Origin: a virus
DNA: 64,000 nt
Reading direction: 5' to 3' (one strand)
Virus record (IMG/VR): IMGVR_UViG_3300028920_000037
Location: 1-64,000 of that record
This document shows, piece by piece, positions 6,463 to 14,534 of this stretch; within the stretch, counting starts at the first letter, position 1, and every line of letters starts with the position of its first letter. The position numbers and the translations under genes were made by a program. Below the pieces are notes generated by a model. It made no database searches. It worked only from the letters and a program-made list of their open reading frames with translations, and was not told the DNA's origin.

Positions 6463-8355
6463 ATGTCCAAGTACTTTACTCTAGAGCAGCTTAGCGAAGG
6501 CGTCATGGAGAGGCACGTCGGTGCCGAACGCTCCCGCCTCGTTGAGAAGTGGAGCCGTACGGGTCTCCTGCGAGGCCTCGAAGGCAAGCGTCGTGAAAGC
6601 ATGGCGCAGCTCCTCGAGAACCAGGCTGTCCAGGTCCTCAAGGAAAGCAACGCACTGTCGACTGGTGGAGCAGGCCTGACGTCGTCCGGCCAGATCCAGG
6701 GCTTCAGCAACATCGCATTCCCGATCGTCCGCCGAGTGTTCGGTGGCCTTGTCGCGAACGAACTGGTTTCAATCCAGCCGATGTCACTGCCTTCGGGCCT
6801 GATCTTCTACATCGACTACACCTACGGGTCAAACGTCGGTGGAGACGCTGGCGTCGACCTTTCGTCATCCTCGACGAATGAGACCTACACTCGTGGCCAG
6901 TCACTGTACAACAACCCAGCAGGTAGGGGAGTCCAGAGTGGTTCTCTTGCGGCGGGTGGTATGTACGACCTCGTCGGCTCGGGTTACTCAAAGGTTCATA
7001 CTGGTTCGACAGCTGTGACAGTCGCCACGACGGCAATCGGTGCATGGACCGGCGCGAATGACACATTCGTTTCCGGAACAACTGTTGCTGCATCGACTGA
7101 CTTCACGGGCTCAAACGCCCAGTACGTCAGCTACGATGGCCAGATTGCAAAGGACCTCGACCTTGGCACTCTCGATCTCACCTACGTCCACCTCGCGGTC
7201 ACGGACCTCGCTTCGGCGATTCCGACGGGCAACGTCCTCGACGTTGACCAGATCGCAGTCACTGGCCTTTCTGTCCCGGGCGGCGCTCAGGCATGGGGAG
7301 AGGCATACCAGGCAGGAACAGGTGTCCTCAACCTGCGTCGTCACAACAAGCGTGGTAACTTCTCTGGTGGTGTTTGGACTCCAAACCCGCTGAACGGTAC
7401 GCACGTTCAGATGGCGCTTCGTCTGTCAAACGGTGGTGGAGCTCCTCAGGTCGGTACGGCAACGGTTTCGATGGCGGTTGCAGATACAGTCCAGACAGGA
7501 GACGCCGTCGGTGCTACGCTGACGATCCCGTCCTTCGAGTCTGACTTTGGCGCGACTCCTTCGCCTTCGATCCCGGACATCGACATCAAGATCGAGACGA
7601 TCTCGATCACTGCAACAACCCGCAAGCTTCGTGCTCGCTGGACGCCGGAACTCGCACAGGACCTCAACGCATACCACAGCACGGATGCAGAGGTTGAGCT
7701 CACCAGCATCCTGTCTGAGCAGGTTGCGCTCGAGATCGACCGTGAGATCCTCCACGAGCTCCTCACGCAGGCCAACGGTGCAAACCTCTACTGGAGCCGC
7801 GCGCCTGGCAAGTTCGTCGATAAGGAGACAGGCAAGCCGATCCGGCTCGCGAACTCGCTGTCCGTGGGTCCTGCATTCACGGGTACGGTTCAGGATTGGT
7901 ACCAGACGCTGGTTGAGACCATCGTCGATGTCGCCAACACGATTCACAGGAAGACCCTCCGCGGCGCAGCCAACTTTGTTGTGACTGGTCCGGACGTCTG
8001 CACGATCCTGGAATCCAGCGTCCTCTACAAGCCGAAGTACACGATCGATGGTGAAGGCCAGGTCGGCAACCCGATGACAATCGGTGCCGAGGCGATCGGT
8101 ACTGTGTCGAATCGCTTCACGGTCTACAAGGACCCGTACTTCCCGCGTAACCGCATCCTTGTCGGTTTCAAGGGTGGAAGCTACCTCGAAACGGGCTTCG
8201 TATACGCACCTTACGTGCCGCTCATCGTCACCCCGACGATCTACGCACCTGAGGACTTCACGCCTCGCAAGGGTGTGATGACCCGCTACGGCAAGAAGAT
8301 GGTCAGGAGCGATTATTATGGGACCGTTACGATTTTGGACATGAACATAATTTGA
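6463..8355 (+). CDS. gp23: Major capsid protein, gp23-like
   Basis: This is the main shell protein of the T4-type head. Diagnostic segments are the N-terminal delta region (VEKWSRTGLLRGLEGKRRES, then MAQLLENQAVQVLKE), followed by IAFPIVRRVFGGLVANELVS and QPMSLPSG near residues 87-112. The C-terminus YYGTVTILDMN is also typical. The wording resembles divergent (far-T4, RM378-like) capsid proteins more than T4 itself. The protease of this family cuts after (L/I)xE; LKE at 59-61 is the likely maturation site, leaving a product that starts SNALSTGG. At 630 residues it is longer than T4 gp23. The start follows ACGGAGAAACAA. An intrinsic terminator lies 30 bases downstream. Confidence 0.95.
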   Translation: MSKYFTLEQLSEGVMERHVGAERSRLVEKWSRTGLLRGLEGKRRESMAQLLENQAVQVLKESNALSTGGAGLTSSGQIQGFSNIAFPIVRRVFGGLVANELVSIQPMSLPSGLIFYIDYTYGSNVGGDAGVDLSSSSTNETYTRGQSLYNNPAGRGVQSGSLAAGGMYDLVGSGYSKVHTGSTAVTVATTAIGAWTGANDTFVSGTTVAASTDFTGSNAQYVSYDGQIAKDLDLGTLDLTYVHLAVTDLASAIPTGNVLDVDQIAVTGLSVPGGAQAWGEAYQAGTGVLNLRRHNKRGNFSGGVWTPNPLNGTHVQMALRLSNGGGAPQVGTATVSMAVADTVQTGDAVGATLTIPSFESDFGATPSPSIPDIDIKIETISITATTRKLRARWTPELAQDLNAYHSTDAEVELTSILSEQVALEIDREILHELLTQANGANLYWSRAPGKFVDKETGKPIRLANSLSVGPAFTGTVQDWYQTLVETIVDVANTIHRKTLRGAANFVVTGPDVCTILESSVLYKPKYTIDGEGQVGNPMTIGAEAIGTVSNRFTVYKDPYFPRNRILVGFKGGSYLETGFVYAPYVPLIVTPTIYAPEDFTPRKGVMTRYGKKMVRSDYYGTVTILDMNII

Positions 8356-8459: not shown

Positions 8460-9395
8460 ATGCAAGAGGAAACACTTTGTCGCGAGTGTGGACAGGAATT
8501 CGATACATCTGAACAGGTTCGTCGTCACTTAAGAAAACACAAGATGTCCTATAAAGATTACGTGTTGAAGTGGAAGTACGATAACATCAAACCAATTTGC
8601 AAGTGTGGTTGCGGCCAAGAGACGCTTTGGAACATAGCGTTGAAGGATTTTGCTGTTCACGTCCAAGGACATCACGCGTGGGGTTGTAAGAAGTCCGACG
8701 AAGAAAAGCAAAAAATTGGTCGCAAGAACAGCGAAAACATGAAGCGTTATTATGCTGAACATCATGATGAAGCAATGCGAAAAGTTGCGTTAATGAACGC
8801 GGCACATACACCAGAAGTTGAAGCAAAACGTATCAAAGCAACCCGTCGAGCCTACGAGACTATGTCGTTCGAAGACAAGCAGAAGTTTTCAGACAACACA
8901 AAAAAGCTCTGGAGAGAGTCTCGAGAACTCATGGATGCGGCACGTGAAAAAGCTGCTATAACGTTCAAAGAACGTGCTGCAAACGGTGAATATGACCTTG
9001 AAAGTCGTAACAGAAAGATTTCAAAAGCGATAACTCAACTGTACATCGACGGTGGACAAGCATGGGGCACGGGTCACTATACGTCTACAAAAACAGGAAA
9101 GACGATTTATCATCGTTCGTCTTGGGAGCTTCAATATGCTCAGCTGTTGGATGAAGATCCTGATGTACTAACATGGGAGTTTGAATGGGAAGGCATCCCA
9201 TATGAAATTGATGGTGTAATTCATCATTACGTTCCTGATTTTCACGTTGTGATGAATGATAAGTCTCACCTCTTTGTTGAGGTCAAGCCCCAGGCGCTTG
9301 TTGAAACTGATGTAAATGCGGCAAAACGCAATGCAGCACTAAGGGTATGTGAACACCGAGGGTGGAAGTACGTTTCATGGGCTCCTGTTGTATAA
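8460..9395 (+). CDS. Zinc-finger homing endonuclease with PD-(D/E)XK domain
   Basis: This is a probable free-standing homing endonuclease. It has an N-terminal C2H2 finger (Cys7, Cys10, His23, His27), then a CKCGCG...GHH cysteine module (47-72), a helical Lys-rich linker, and a C-terminal PD-(D/E)XK-type nuclease fold. Candidate catalytic residues are Glu223 (SSWE), Asp260 (VPDF) and Glu274-x-Lys276 (VEVKP). The base composition is visibly more AT-rich than the capsid gene, as expected of a recent invader. It follows the capsid terminator and has its own host-type promoter, with no ribosome binding site before the ATG. The first two modules are shared with the genes at 39667 and 42019. Confidence 0.85.
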   Translation: MQEETLCRECGQEFDTSEQVRRHLRKHKMSYKDYVLKWKYDNIKPICKCGCGQETLWNIALKDFAVHVQGHHAWGCKKSDEEKQKIGRKNSENMKRYYAEHHDEAMRKVALMNAAHTPEVEAKRIKATRRAYETMSFEDKQKFSDNTKKLWRESRELMDAAREKAAITFKERAANGEYDLESRNRKISKAITQLYIDGGQAWGTGHYTSTKTGKTIYHRSSWELQYAQLLDEDPDVLTWEFEWEGIPYEIDGVIHHYVPDFHVVMNDKSHLFVEVKPQALVETDVNAAKRNAALRVCEHRGWKYVSWAPVV

Positions 9396-11609: not shown

Positions 11610-11965
11610 GGGGCCGACTGGCTTCGACGTGGGAAGAGAAGGTAGGAACGATCACGTAGGGTTTCTGGGTACCCTTAACTGCTCAGGCGTAAACAACTGC
11701 GAACGATAACGCATTCGCTGACGTACCGCGAGCAATCGCTGCGTAAGCCGTCTCAGTGAATACGGCCTTTCGGTATCACTGAGGCGTCAATCCCAGAAAG
11801 GAAACCGGCGCGGTAAGGCTCATAATCCGCACGGTAAAATTTTGAGCTAGGATTGTTGCCTGCTGAATCGCAACAAACCCGCCGCAGGGTCAAGCGGCTA
11901 AGCGTGTGAACAAGGTTCTATTGGACTTTTTGCGGATTTGGGTTCGACTCCCAACGGTCCCGCCA
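11610..11965 (+). ncRNA. ssrA: One-piece transfer-messenger RNA
   Basis: The 5' end GGGGCCG pairs with CGGTCCC near the 3' end (7 bp, one G-U), followed by G-CCA (CCA encoded, 11963-11965). The 5' segment GGCTTCGACG is the tmRNA D-loop equivalent. TTGGG-TTCGACT-CCCAA at 11939-11955 is a perfect T arm. The tag frame starts at GCG 11699 and reads ANDNAFADVPRAIAA, ending TAA (11744-11746), with the usual A-N-D start and A-A end. At 356 bases the length is typical. tmRNA with SmpB rescues stalled ribosomes and tags the product for proteolysis; I see no smpB here, so host SmpB is presumably used. Confidence 0.96.
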
Positions 11966-12004
11966 ACTTCAATTAATAACGGTTCCAAAAGGAGTAAAAT
12001 TAAA

Positions 12005-12076: not shown

Positions 12077-12106
12077 ACGCCCCCTTGTGGGGCGTTACCT
12101 TATTTA
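12077..12106 (+). terminator. Probable terminator overlapping a TATTTA motif
   Basis: ACGCCCC / GGGGCGT forms a 7-bp stem with loop CTTGT (12077-12095), followed by TACCTTATTTA. It would end the tmRNA/minigene transcript. The T-rich tail includes TATTTA, the promoter-like motif for the next gene. Confidence 0.55.
12101..12106 (+). promoter_or_regulatory. TATTTA late-promoter-like hexamer
   Basis: The motif lies 19 bases before the ATG at 12126 and just after a GC-rich hairpin. A ribosome binding site (CGGGAGAACG) follows. Confidence 0.45.
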
Positions 12107-12315: not shown

Positions 12316-12537
12316 ATGAACAACTCAGCAGACCTCTATCAACCGATTGTATCGTCTCGCGTCGGACCTCCACCCGTTGTGATTAGGACAGTCGTGACGC
12401 CGAGGAACGACGGTCTTGTCGAAGGCGTTCCACAGACCACACGTCGTGGAGAGGCGTACATCCTCCTGTCAGCCCTACCTGAAGAGCTTCGGCGTCGTGT
12501 TGAGTTAGCCGCTCAGGCGATCATTGCAGCAGGATAA
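12316..12537 (+). CDS. Unknown small protein, 73 aa
   Basis: The ATG follows GGGATGAGGAT. The N-terminal half is Pro and Val-rich and probably extended (SSRVGPPPVVIRTVVTPRND). The C-terminal half is helical (ALPEELRRRVELAAQAIIAAG). It converges with the minus-strand gene at 12513 with a 25-base overlap. I do not recognise it. Confidence 0.7.
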   Translation: MNNSADLYQPIVSSRVGPPPVVIRTVVTPRNDGLVEGVPQTTRRGEAYILLSALPEELRRRVELAAQAIIAAG

Positions 12538-13242: not shown

Positions 13243-13743
13243 ATGGAAGATTTTACAGTGTCAGAAAAGTTAATCGATGCCGCAACATCCGCAAGGATGA
13301 CAGGTGACCTCCCAGGTGGGACAAACTACGAACAGGCACATCCTACTGTGCCTCTGTACTATGATCACAAGAGGTTAAAGCAGGTGATAGCGCTCGCTCG
13401 TGCAATCACGCCACCGTCTCAGCTGATGATGGCACAGTCGATCGCTCGAGAGGAGAGCGACAACTCGATCATTGTTGATGTCACTGGAATGTCGGGTATC
13501 GAAGCCGCGAATAAGGTGCTGACAATTGCAAGGGACAACCCCAAAAAGCACGTCTATCCGATCGACGTGTCTGAGGGATTGAAGGACATTGATGCATCTT
13601 CGATCGAAGAGTTTGAACATCAAACGATGGCACTGAACGTTGCGCTAAGCGTAAAGCGCGGTGTTTGCTCAATTGATGAGATTCCAAAACAGTATCAAAG
13701 CGAAGCCGCAGCGCTTCTCGGTGTGATCGGAGACGACGAATGA
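13243..13743 (+). CDS. Unknown protein upstream of endolysin, 166 aa
   Basis: I do not recognise this protein. It starts MEDFTVSEKLIDAATSARM after CCAAGGAGCGCCAAG. It looks like a compact alpha/beta protein (SIIVDVTGMSGIEAANKVLTIA, KHVYPIDVSEGLKDID). It overlaps the endolysin start by four bases (ATGA), so it is probably translationally coupled to it. No membrane segment is present, so it is not an obvious holin. Confidence 0.75.
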   Translation: MEDFTVSEKLIDAATSARMTGDLPGGTNYEQAHPTVPLYYDHKRLKQVIALARAITPPSQLMMAQSIAREESDNSIIVDVTGMSGIEAANKVLTIARDNPKKHVYPIDVSEGLKDIDASSIEEFEHQTMALNVALSVKRGVCSIDEIPKQYQSEAAALLGVIGDDE

Positions 13744-14534
13744 GGTTGCTCTTTAAGGGAATGCACGGCGAGGACGTTGCACGTTGGCAGTTGTTTCTCA
13801 GAGGTACAAATCCCTACAGTGAGGTCATCGTCAGTGGAGAATTTGACGATATCACTCATGAGGAGACGAAGGATTTTCAAGAGATCTACGGCCTCAAGTT
13901 GGATGGAAGGGTCGGAGGGAAGACGCTCGCCCGGGCCCTCGACAATGACTTTTACGTCTTTGATGAAGACGCTGACGTGGACTATCAGGATACATGGGGA
14001 CAACACTGGCCAGCTCCTCCAGATTTTTCTCCATTGAACTACAGCGAACGAGTGAAGCTGTTTGGCAGGTTTAGCTACAAACATACTCCGATCAAGGGAA
14101 TGCCAGAGCTGATCACCATCACTGACGGTTGGCAGTCAAAGAACGTGAAGTTCTTTGAAATCCCACAATTGGAAAACGTCCAGGGTGCGCCAAGAAACTG
14201 TCGAGTGCTTCTTCACCAAAAGGTGGGTGACCAGATCGTGCAGACCTTCAAGGACTGGGAGGACGCCCACCTCCATAACAAGGTCCTCGGTTGGGCGGGA
14301 TCGTTCGTGCCAAGGTTTGTGAGGGGATCAAGGCAGACGCTTTCGAACCATGCACATGCAACGGCGTTTGACATCAACGTCCCATGGAACCTGATGGGGC
14401 GTACACCTGCGTTGAAGGGCAAGAAGGGTTCAGTTCGCGAGCTTGTACGGATCGCAAACAATAACGGTCTTTACTGGGGTGGGCACTTTAAGCGACCCGA
14501 CGGTATGCACTTTGAGGTAGCTCGCGTCCTATAA
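13740..14534 (+). CDS. Endolysin: peptidoglycan-binding domain plus M15 peptidase
   Basis: Residues 1-65 (MRLLFKGMHGEDVARWQLFLRG...LKLDGRVGGKTLARAL) match a PG_binding_1 domain. The C-terminal third is an M15 (VanY-like) zinc peptidase: SNHAHATAFD gives His204 and Asp211, and DGMHFE gives His257. Such enzymes cut cross-link peptides in the cell wall at lysis or entry. There is no signal peptide, so it would need a holin or act from the virion. It stands at the head of the fibre gene block. The start overlaps the previous stop. Confidence 0.9.
   Translation: MRLLFKGMHGEDVARWQLFLRGTNPYSEVIVSGEFDDITHEETKDFQEIYGLKLDGRVGGKTLARALDNDFYVFDEDADVDYQDTWGQHWPAPPDFSPLNYSERVKLFGRFSYKHTPIKGMPELITITDGWQSKNVKFFEIPQLENVQGAPRNCRVLLHQKVGDQIVQTFKDWEDAHLHNKVLGWAGSFVPRFVRGSRQTLSNHAHATAFDINVPWNLMGRTPALKGKKGSVRELVRIANNNGLYWGGHFKRPDGMHFEVARVL

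Follow-up and report, generated by a model that had tools for sequence, protein, structure and literature searches.

Can a phage-encoded tmRNA remain a ribosome-rescue molecule when its acceptor stem carries no standard signal for alanine? This question is raised by the virus record IMGVR_UViG_3300028920_000037 (140,495 bp), the first 64 kb of which, here called the window, were analysed. Reviews describe a G-U pair at the third acceptor position of tmRNA as completely conserved or as present in all ssrA sequences; G3:U70 is the main signal for alanyl-tRNA synthetase (AlaRS), and by these reviews AlaRS is hence the sole synthetase acting on tmRNA (PMC3985003, PMC3968760). Phage-borne tmRNA has already been described, and one survey counts it in 402 of 18,146 phage genomes, or 2.3% (PMC9004378). 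A preliminary description of this DNA, which called tmRNA rare in phages, was right that it is uncommon, but the kind is known and recurs in this phage group. The tmRNA of the window belongs to this known kind, and what is new is its acceptor variant.

Genomic context

The structural genes of the phage are T4-like and include a Gp23 capsid protein, a tail sheath and a T4 baseplate protein; gp32-like and RecA proteins and a DnaE-type polymerase are also encoded in the record. Among named phages the relatives of the capsid and sheath proteins are distant, the best of them spanning Microcystis and Flavobacterium phages. The phage record yielded no tRNA gene other than the tmRNA, no AlaRS gene and, in its possibly incomplete 140 kb, no SmpB gene. 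The 73-aa protein encoded downstream of the tmRNA had no match in a Pfam search; its gene is the first shared gene 3' of the tmRNA in five relatives, and it is kept 3' of the slot whether or not a relative carries a tmRNA.

Two other loci deserve mention. At 8460-9395 the window encodes a protein of the head-closure type whose C-terminal domain is a TnsA-like nuclease; the protein is very variable among relatives (22-42% identity, versus 60-78% for the capsid protein). DNA polymerase III alpha seems to be in two parts in record G000 (about 91.5-100.1 kb; L003 9525-11792 and 16780-18108): a frame of 755 aa has the PHP and NTPase domains, and one of 442 aa, some 5 kb on, has an HHH_6 domain, with a 654-aa HTH frame between the two.

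Identification and fold of the tmRNA

The preliminary description proposed a tmRNA that the phage encodes and that has a tag of its own, and this is confirmed. ARAGORN and Rfam place the gene at exactly 11610-11965, among phage genes that have phage relatives; it is the only RNA gene that ARAGORN finds in the window, with the tag ANDNAFADVPRAIAA followed by a stop and a coding part at gene positions 90-137. The match to RF00023, the sole Rfam match across the 64 kb, covers the model at full length (1-374) in one piece and scores 94.3 bits (gathering score 47, E 1.9e-35), a value that falls among those of tmRNAs from sister phages (57-125 bits). The features of the family are thus present, namely a covariance-model score above the cut-off, a tRNA-like domain, and a tag frame with an alanine resume codon and a stop (Table 1).

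The best combined pseudoknot score is 146, against 67.6 +/- 25.7 in 200 dinucleotide shuffles, one of which is as high. The PK3 helix GGCTCA/TGAGCT was also recovered by this search, while PK3 as a whole knot was drawn by eye. A minimum-free-energy calculation gave a weak z-score (-1.31), as expected when the program cannot draw the pseudoknots of such an RNA. The stretch 11610-11965 is a genuine one-piece tmRNA.

Table 1. Features of the tmRNA and its surroundings in the window
Feature	Positions	Strand	Basis or remark
Major capsid protein Gp23, T4-type	6463-8355	+	Pfam PF07068, E 2e-73; upstream syntenic anchor
One-piece tmRNA (ssrA)	11610-11965	+	ARAGORN; Rfam RF00023
Acceptor 5' strand GGGGCCG	11610-11616	+	7/7 pairs with 11955-11961
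PK1, 11657-11661/11673-11677 and 11664-11671/11680-11687	11657-11687	+	pseudoknot search against shuffles
Tag reading frame, resume codon GCG (alanine), stop TAA	11699-11746	+	ARAGORN
PK2, 11749-11759/11776-11786 and 11766-11771/11796-11801	11749-11801	+	pseudoknot search against shuffles
PK3, 11805-11813/11827-11834 (mismatch) and GGCTCA 11817-11822/TGAGCT 11843-11848	11805-11848	+	drawn by eye
PK4, TTGTTGC 11853-11859/GCAACAA 11870-11876 and CTGC 11860-11863/GCAG 11884-11887	11853-11888	+	by eye only
T-arm TTGGG/TTCGACT/CCCAA	11938-11954	+	5/5 pairs; loop fits TTCRA
Sequence as assembled, GGTCCCGCCA	within 11950-11970		
Acceptor 3' strand CGGTCCC; 3:70 G-C, 4:69 G-U	11955-11961	+	sequence
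Discriminator G73 and encoded CCA (usual: A73)	11962-11965	+	sequence
Terminator-like hairpin	12077-12095	+	about 110 bases 3' of the tmRNA; 3 sites found versus 1.2 expected, weak
73-aa protein, function unassigned	12316-12537	+	tblastn, 42-57% identity in relatives
Endolysin (peptidoglycan-binding and peptidase M15)	13740-14534	+	downstream syntenic anchor, found in relatives

Acceptor stem

The two ends of the gene form the pairs G1-C72, G2-C71, G3-C70, G4-U69, C5-G68, C6-G67 and G7-C66, with G73 as discriminator. The findings that the preliminary description held would speak against it, an absent covariance-model hit or unpaired acceptor ends, did not occur, and the acceptor stem, T arm, CCA and tag that it saw are all there; it had overlooked the absence of both G3:U70 and A73. 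Like RF00023, the molecule has a full-length match to the model, a tRNA-like domain, a tag frame, predicted pseudoknots and an encoded CCA; unlike it, it has G-C at 3:70, a wobble one pair inward at 4:69, and G73 for A73. The standard alanine identity signal (G3:U70, A73) is lost. The tmRNA itself stands, but its normal charging with alanine, which had been presumed, is in doubt because the acceptor is without the alanine identity pair. A stem one pair shorter, in which the G-U would be the third pair from the end, was rejected, as the encoded CCA and the 5-bp T-stem fix the register, although the 5' end of this tmRNA may conceivably be aberrant.

Relatives and lineage

In the capsid relatives the tmRNA lies 2-3.5 kb 3' of the capsid gene, the same slot as in the window, and in five of them it is upstream of the 73-aa gene. 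Matches to tmRNA turned up in 8 of the 33 relatives by capsid and in 8 of the 32 by endolysin, and seven in each set are above the Rfam cut-off, most of these records being fragments. The window tmRNA belongs to a phage-specific lineage with ANDN tags, carried by a T4-like phage. It shares with the syntenic tmRNAs of capsid relatives (L376-L382, with tags such as ANDNxxAPLALAA) a position that follows the capsid gene and precedes the 73-aa gene, and the ANDN start of the tag; unlike the window, these have other tags and other PK1 and PK2 sequences, keep G3:U70 and form a separate branch. The FastTree phylogeny, a quick and rough one (65-70% identity, no support values shown), groups the window with L473, L475, L474, L466, L023 and L065, apart from the syntenic set, so that this slot may have received a tmRNA repeatedly, or the copy of the window may be a replacement.

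Although integration into ssrA is common (PMC11915505), it is highly improbable that a host ssrA was acquired at a prophage attachment site, since the gene is complete and in one piece, lies in the structural module of capsid and endolysin and has syntenic relatives in phages. Searching 50,697 phage records by blastn with the tmRNA gave no match, which also speaks against this origin; the first 25 kb of the window, L473 and L379 likewise had no match in these records. Searches for relatives by the 605-aa neighbour protein and by a tag-based pattern returned none.

The nearest relative in the tree is the tmRNA of L473, on a 437-kb viral contig (G055), which has the acceptor GGGGCCG/CGGCUCC-A and the tag ANDNAIADQAIAA. 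Three transitions, C69U, U70C and A73G, separate the 3' acceptor side of the window from it and leave the stem paired at seven of seven positions. Since L473 has the same 5' strand but retains G3:U70 and A73, the comparison indicates that the canonical acceptor is ancestral and that of the window derived. Among 17 tmRNAs compared, 16 keep G3:U70; in one of them, L380, the stem is altered to GCGCUGG/CCAGUGC and the pair is still kept.

Some relatives are unusual elsewhere in the molecule. T-loops without TTCRA were seen in L382 1501-1876 (-), L479 1501-1867 (+) and L381 1501-1869 (+), all with G3:U70; the loop is GGCAGTA in two different contigs and ATCATTC in the third. L475 1501-1861 (-) is a phage tmRNA with a U73 discriminator and without encoded CCA, and the same tmRNA adjoins a small tRNA cluster in L465/L467.

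Outside the acceptor, the T-stem pairs 49:65 and 50:64 are U-A in the window versus C-G in L473 and most relatives, with both sides changed in a compensatory manner. In 12 aligned codons the tag shows six synonymous differences from that of L473 and one non-synonymous, besides an indel, and the differences are biased to third positions (P about 0.007). With these compensatory pairs, the predicted pseudoknots and the mostly synonymous tag differences, the rest of the molecule looks selected. The constraint in T-stem and tag shows a lineage that has been functional, and it says nothing of the present copy after the acceptor change, because it spans both branches since the divergence from L473.

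Conservation of G3:U70 in other tmRNAs

Viral contigs were surveyed with a pattern leaving positions 70 and 73 free, each tmRNA being aligned by its T-loop. G3:U70 is present in 92 of the 93 distinct tmRNAs obtained (91 with A73 and one with U73), and the window has the only G3-C70 and the only G73. With 13 further relatives, all 105 other viral-contig tmRNAs examined keep the pair. Patterns requiring C70 retrieved no tmRNA from 2.9 million viral contigs within the length and motif limits; they gave 36 and 1 matches, none identified as a tmRNA, and those examined were tRNAs or chance. No second phage with this acceptor was found among the viral contigs scanned.

The C70 patterns had at least 120 matches in bacterial genomes, and two real G3-C70 tmRNAs were among the matches listed. 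Both have A73: L262 3035-3402 (-), from an isolate of Oceanitalea stevensii, and L294 114-467 (-), from a Nitrospinales MAG. Each is the sole tmRNA of its genome, and their relatives are normal, with G3:U70 in 36 of 36. These are isolated single changes, and therefore single losses of G3:U70 happen; positions 69, 70 and 73 were found altered in concert in the window tmRNA only.

These exceptions, together with the fact that the variant is known from a single sequence, are what favours a copy that lost its function recently or was misassembled at the 3' end. Three changes that all fall inside the charging signal and all leave the stem paired speak against such an accident, as do the remaining fold and a covariance score typical of sister phages, and the bacterial cases differ in being single changes with A73 retained. 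A broken or mis-sequenced copy is accordingly rather improbable, and we rank it second.

Charging and possible roles

We favour a working rescue RNA of a phage-specific lineage that is charged by a non-standard route, to which we give a probability of about one half; its expression, charging and use in rescue are inferred. The preliminary description, in which the phage might sustain ribosome rescue late in infection or redirect tagged proteins by a tag unlike the host's, is supported in part, as to the tmRNA and its tag, and both of these roles are putative. During infection the tmRNA would most likely act on stalled ribosomes and on the nascent chains in them, rescuing the former and tagging the latter, with SmpB, EF-Tu and proteases supplied by the host. 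The acceptor no longer follows the standard alanine code on the branch of the window (G3:U70 to G3-C70, wobble at G4:U69, A73 to G73), and the role in trans-translation would have been retained. According to one review, which cites Nameki 1999, alanine is not strictly needed and maybe no absolute prerequisite for trans-translation, and an E. coli tmRNA switched to histidine is described (PMC3985003).

Charging might proceed by two routes. One is a host AlaRS that tolerates the shifted wobble, perhaps aided by SmpB. A sub-case of the favoured reading, not exclusive of it, is that the tmRNA is ordinarily alanine-charged and that G4:U69 and G73 have little effect in its host. In E. coli, G73 alone does no more than modulate alanylation, and some mitochondrial tRNAs have their alanine wobble elsewhere, at G5:U68 or G2:U71 (PMC6451123); archaeal and eukaryal AlaRS can charge G4:U69 tRNAs (PMC7302879). 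The precedents for a moved wobble are non-bacterial, however, for the bacterial AlaRS charging is reported to be confined to RNAs with G3:U70 (PMC7302879), and selection has held every other tmRNA of the group to this pair, so we consider ordinary alanylation doubtful.

The other route would be another synthetase. Of the bacterial identity sets, that of serine is closer to the window acceptor than that of alanine, with G73, C72, G2-C71 and R4-Y69 all present (PMC9976931), a weak indication as only G73 is new relative to L473. SerRS would be the best candidate, because the acceptor fits this set and serine identity needs no anticodon. Further features of tRNA-Ser are a long variable arm and C11-G24; SerRS normally requires the long variable arm, and tmRNA has no tRNA variable arm. 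This missing arm and the reported strictness of AlaRS count against non-standard charging, a reading that rests on one metagenomic sequence and that we still hold at even odds.

The loss of alanine identity beside an intact SmpB-binding tRNA-like domain would also suit an uncharged decoy, which folds and binds SmpB (perhaps also S1 or the ribosome) and, not being alanylated, sequesters SmpB and blocks host trans-translation; G3:U70 is said to be required by bacterial AlaRS (PMC7302879). A precedent is mycobacteriophage DS6A, whose tmRNA consists of the tRNA-like domain only and possibly interferes with host tmRNA; such molecules are reported to inhibit tmRNA whether chargeable or not (PMC4131195, PMC11915505). 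DS6A, as described there, has no tag frame, whereas the window tmRNA has all parts. A decoy has no use for a tag, yet the tag frame and its AIAA end are conserved relative to L473, and all other phage tmRNAs of the group keep G3:U70. We regard the decoy as unlikely and place it third, after the broken or mis-sequenced copy, with the non-standardly charged rescue RNA first.

Significance among phage tmRNAs

As in the phages Melnitz and Bxz1, the latter a mycobacteriophage, a whole ssrA gene is carried by the phage (PMC9004378, PMC4131195). The Melnitz tmRNA, unlike that of the window, is two-piece and accompanied by a glutamine riboswitch, and loss of alanine identity is not reported for tmRNAs of the Melnitz and Bxz1 type in the available portions of PMC9004378 and PMC4131195. 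As a possibility more tentative than the rescue role, the amino-acid identity of this natural tmRNA may have been switched or abolished. It would then be either the first tmRNA that a synthetase besides AlaRS charges, with serine as the best guess, or a decoy of full length and with a tag that jams ribosome rescue in the host. A phage tmRNA keeping all but the alanine signal would be a natural test of the need for alanine in trans-translation, or of phage decoys against ribosome rescue, and the lineage of ANDN-tag tmRNAs in uncultivated T4-like phages would be a comparative set for why phages retain tmRNA.
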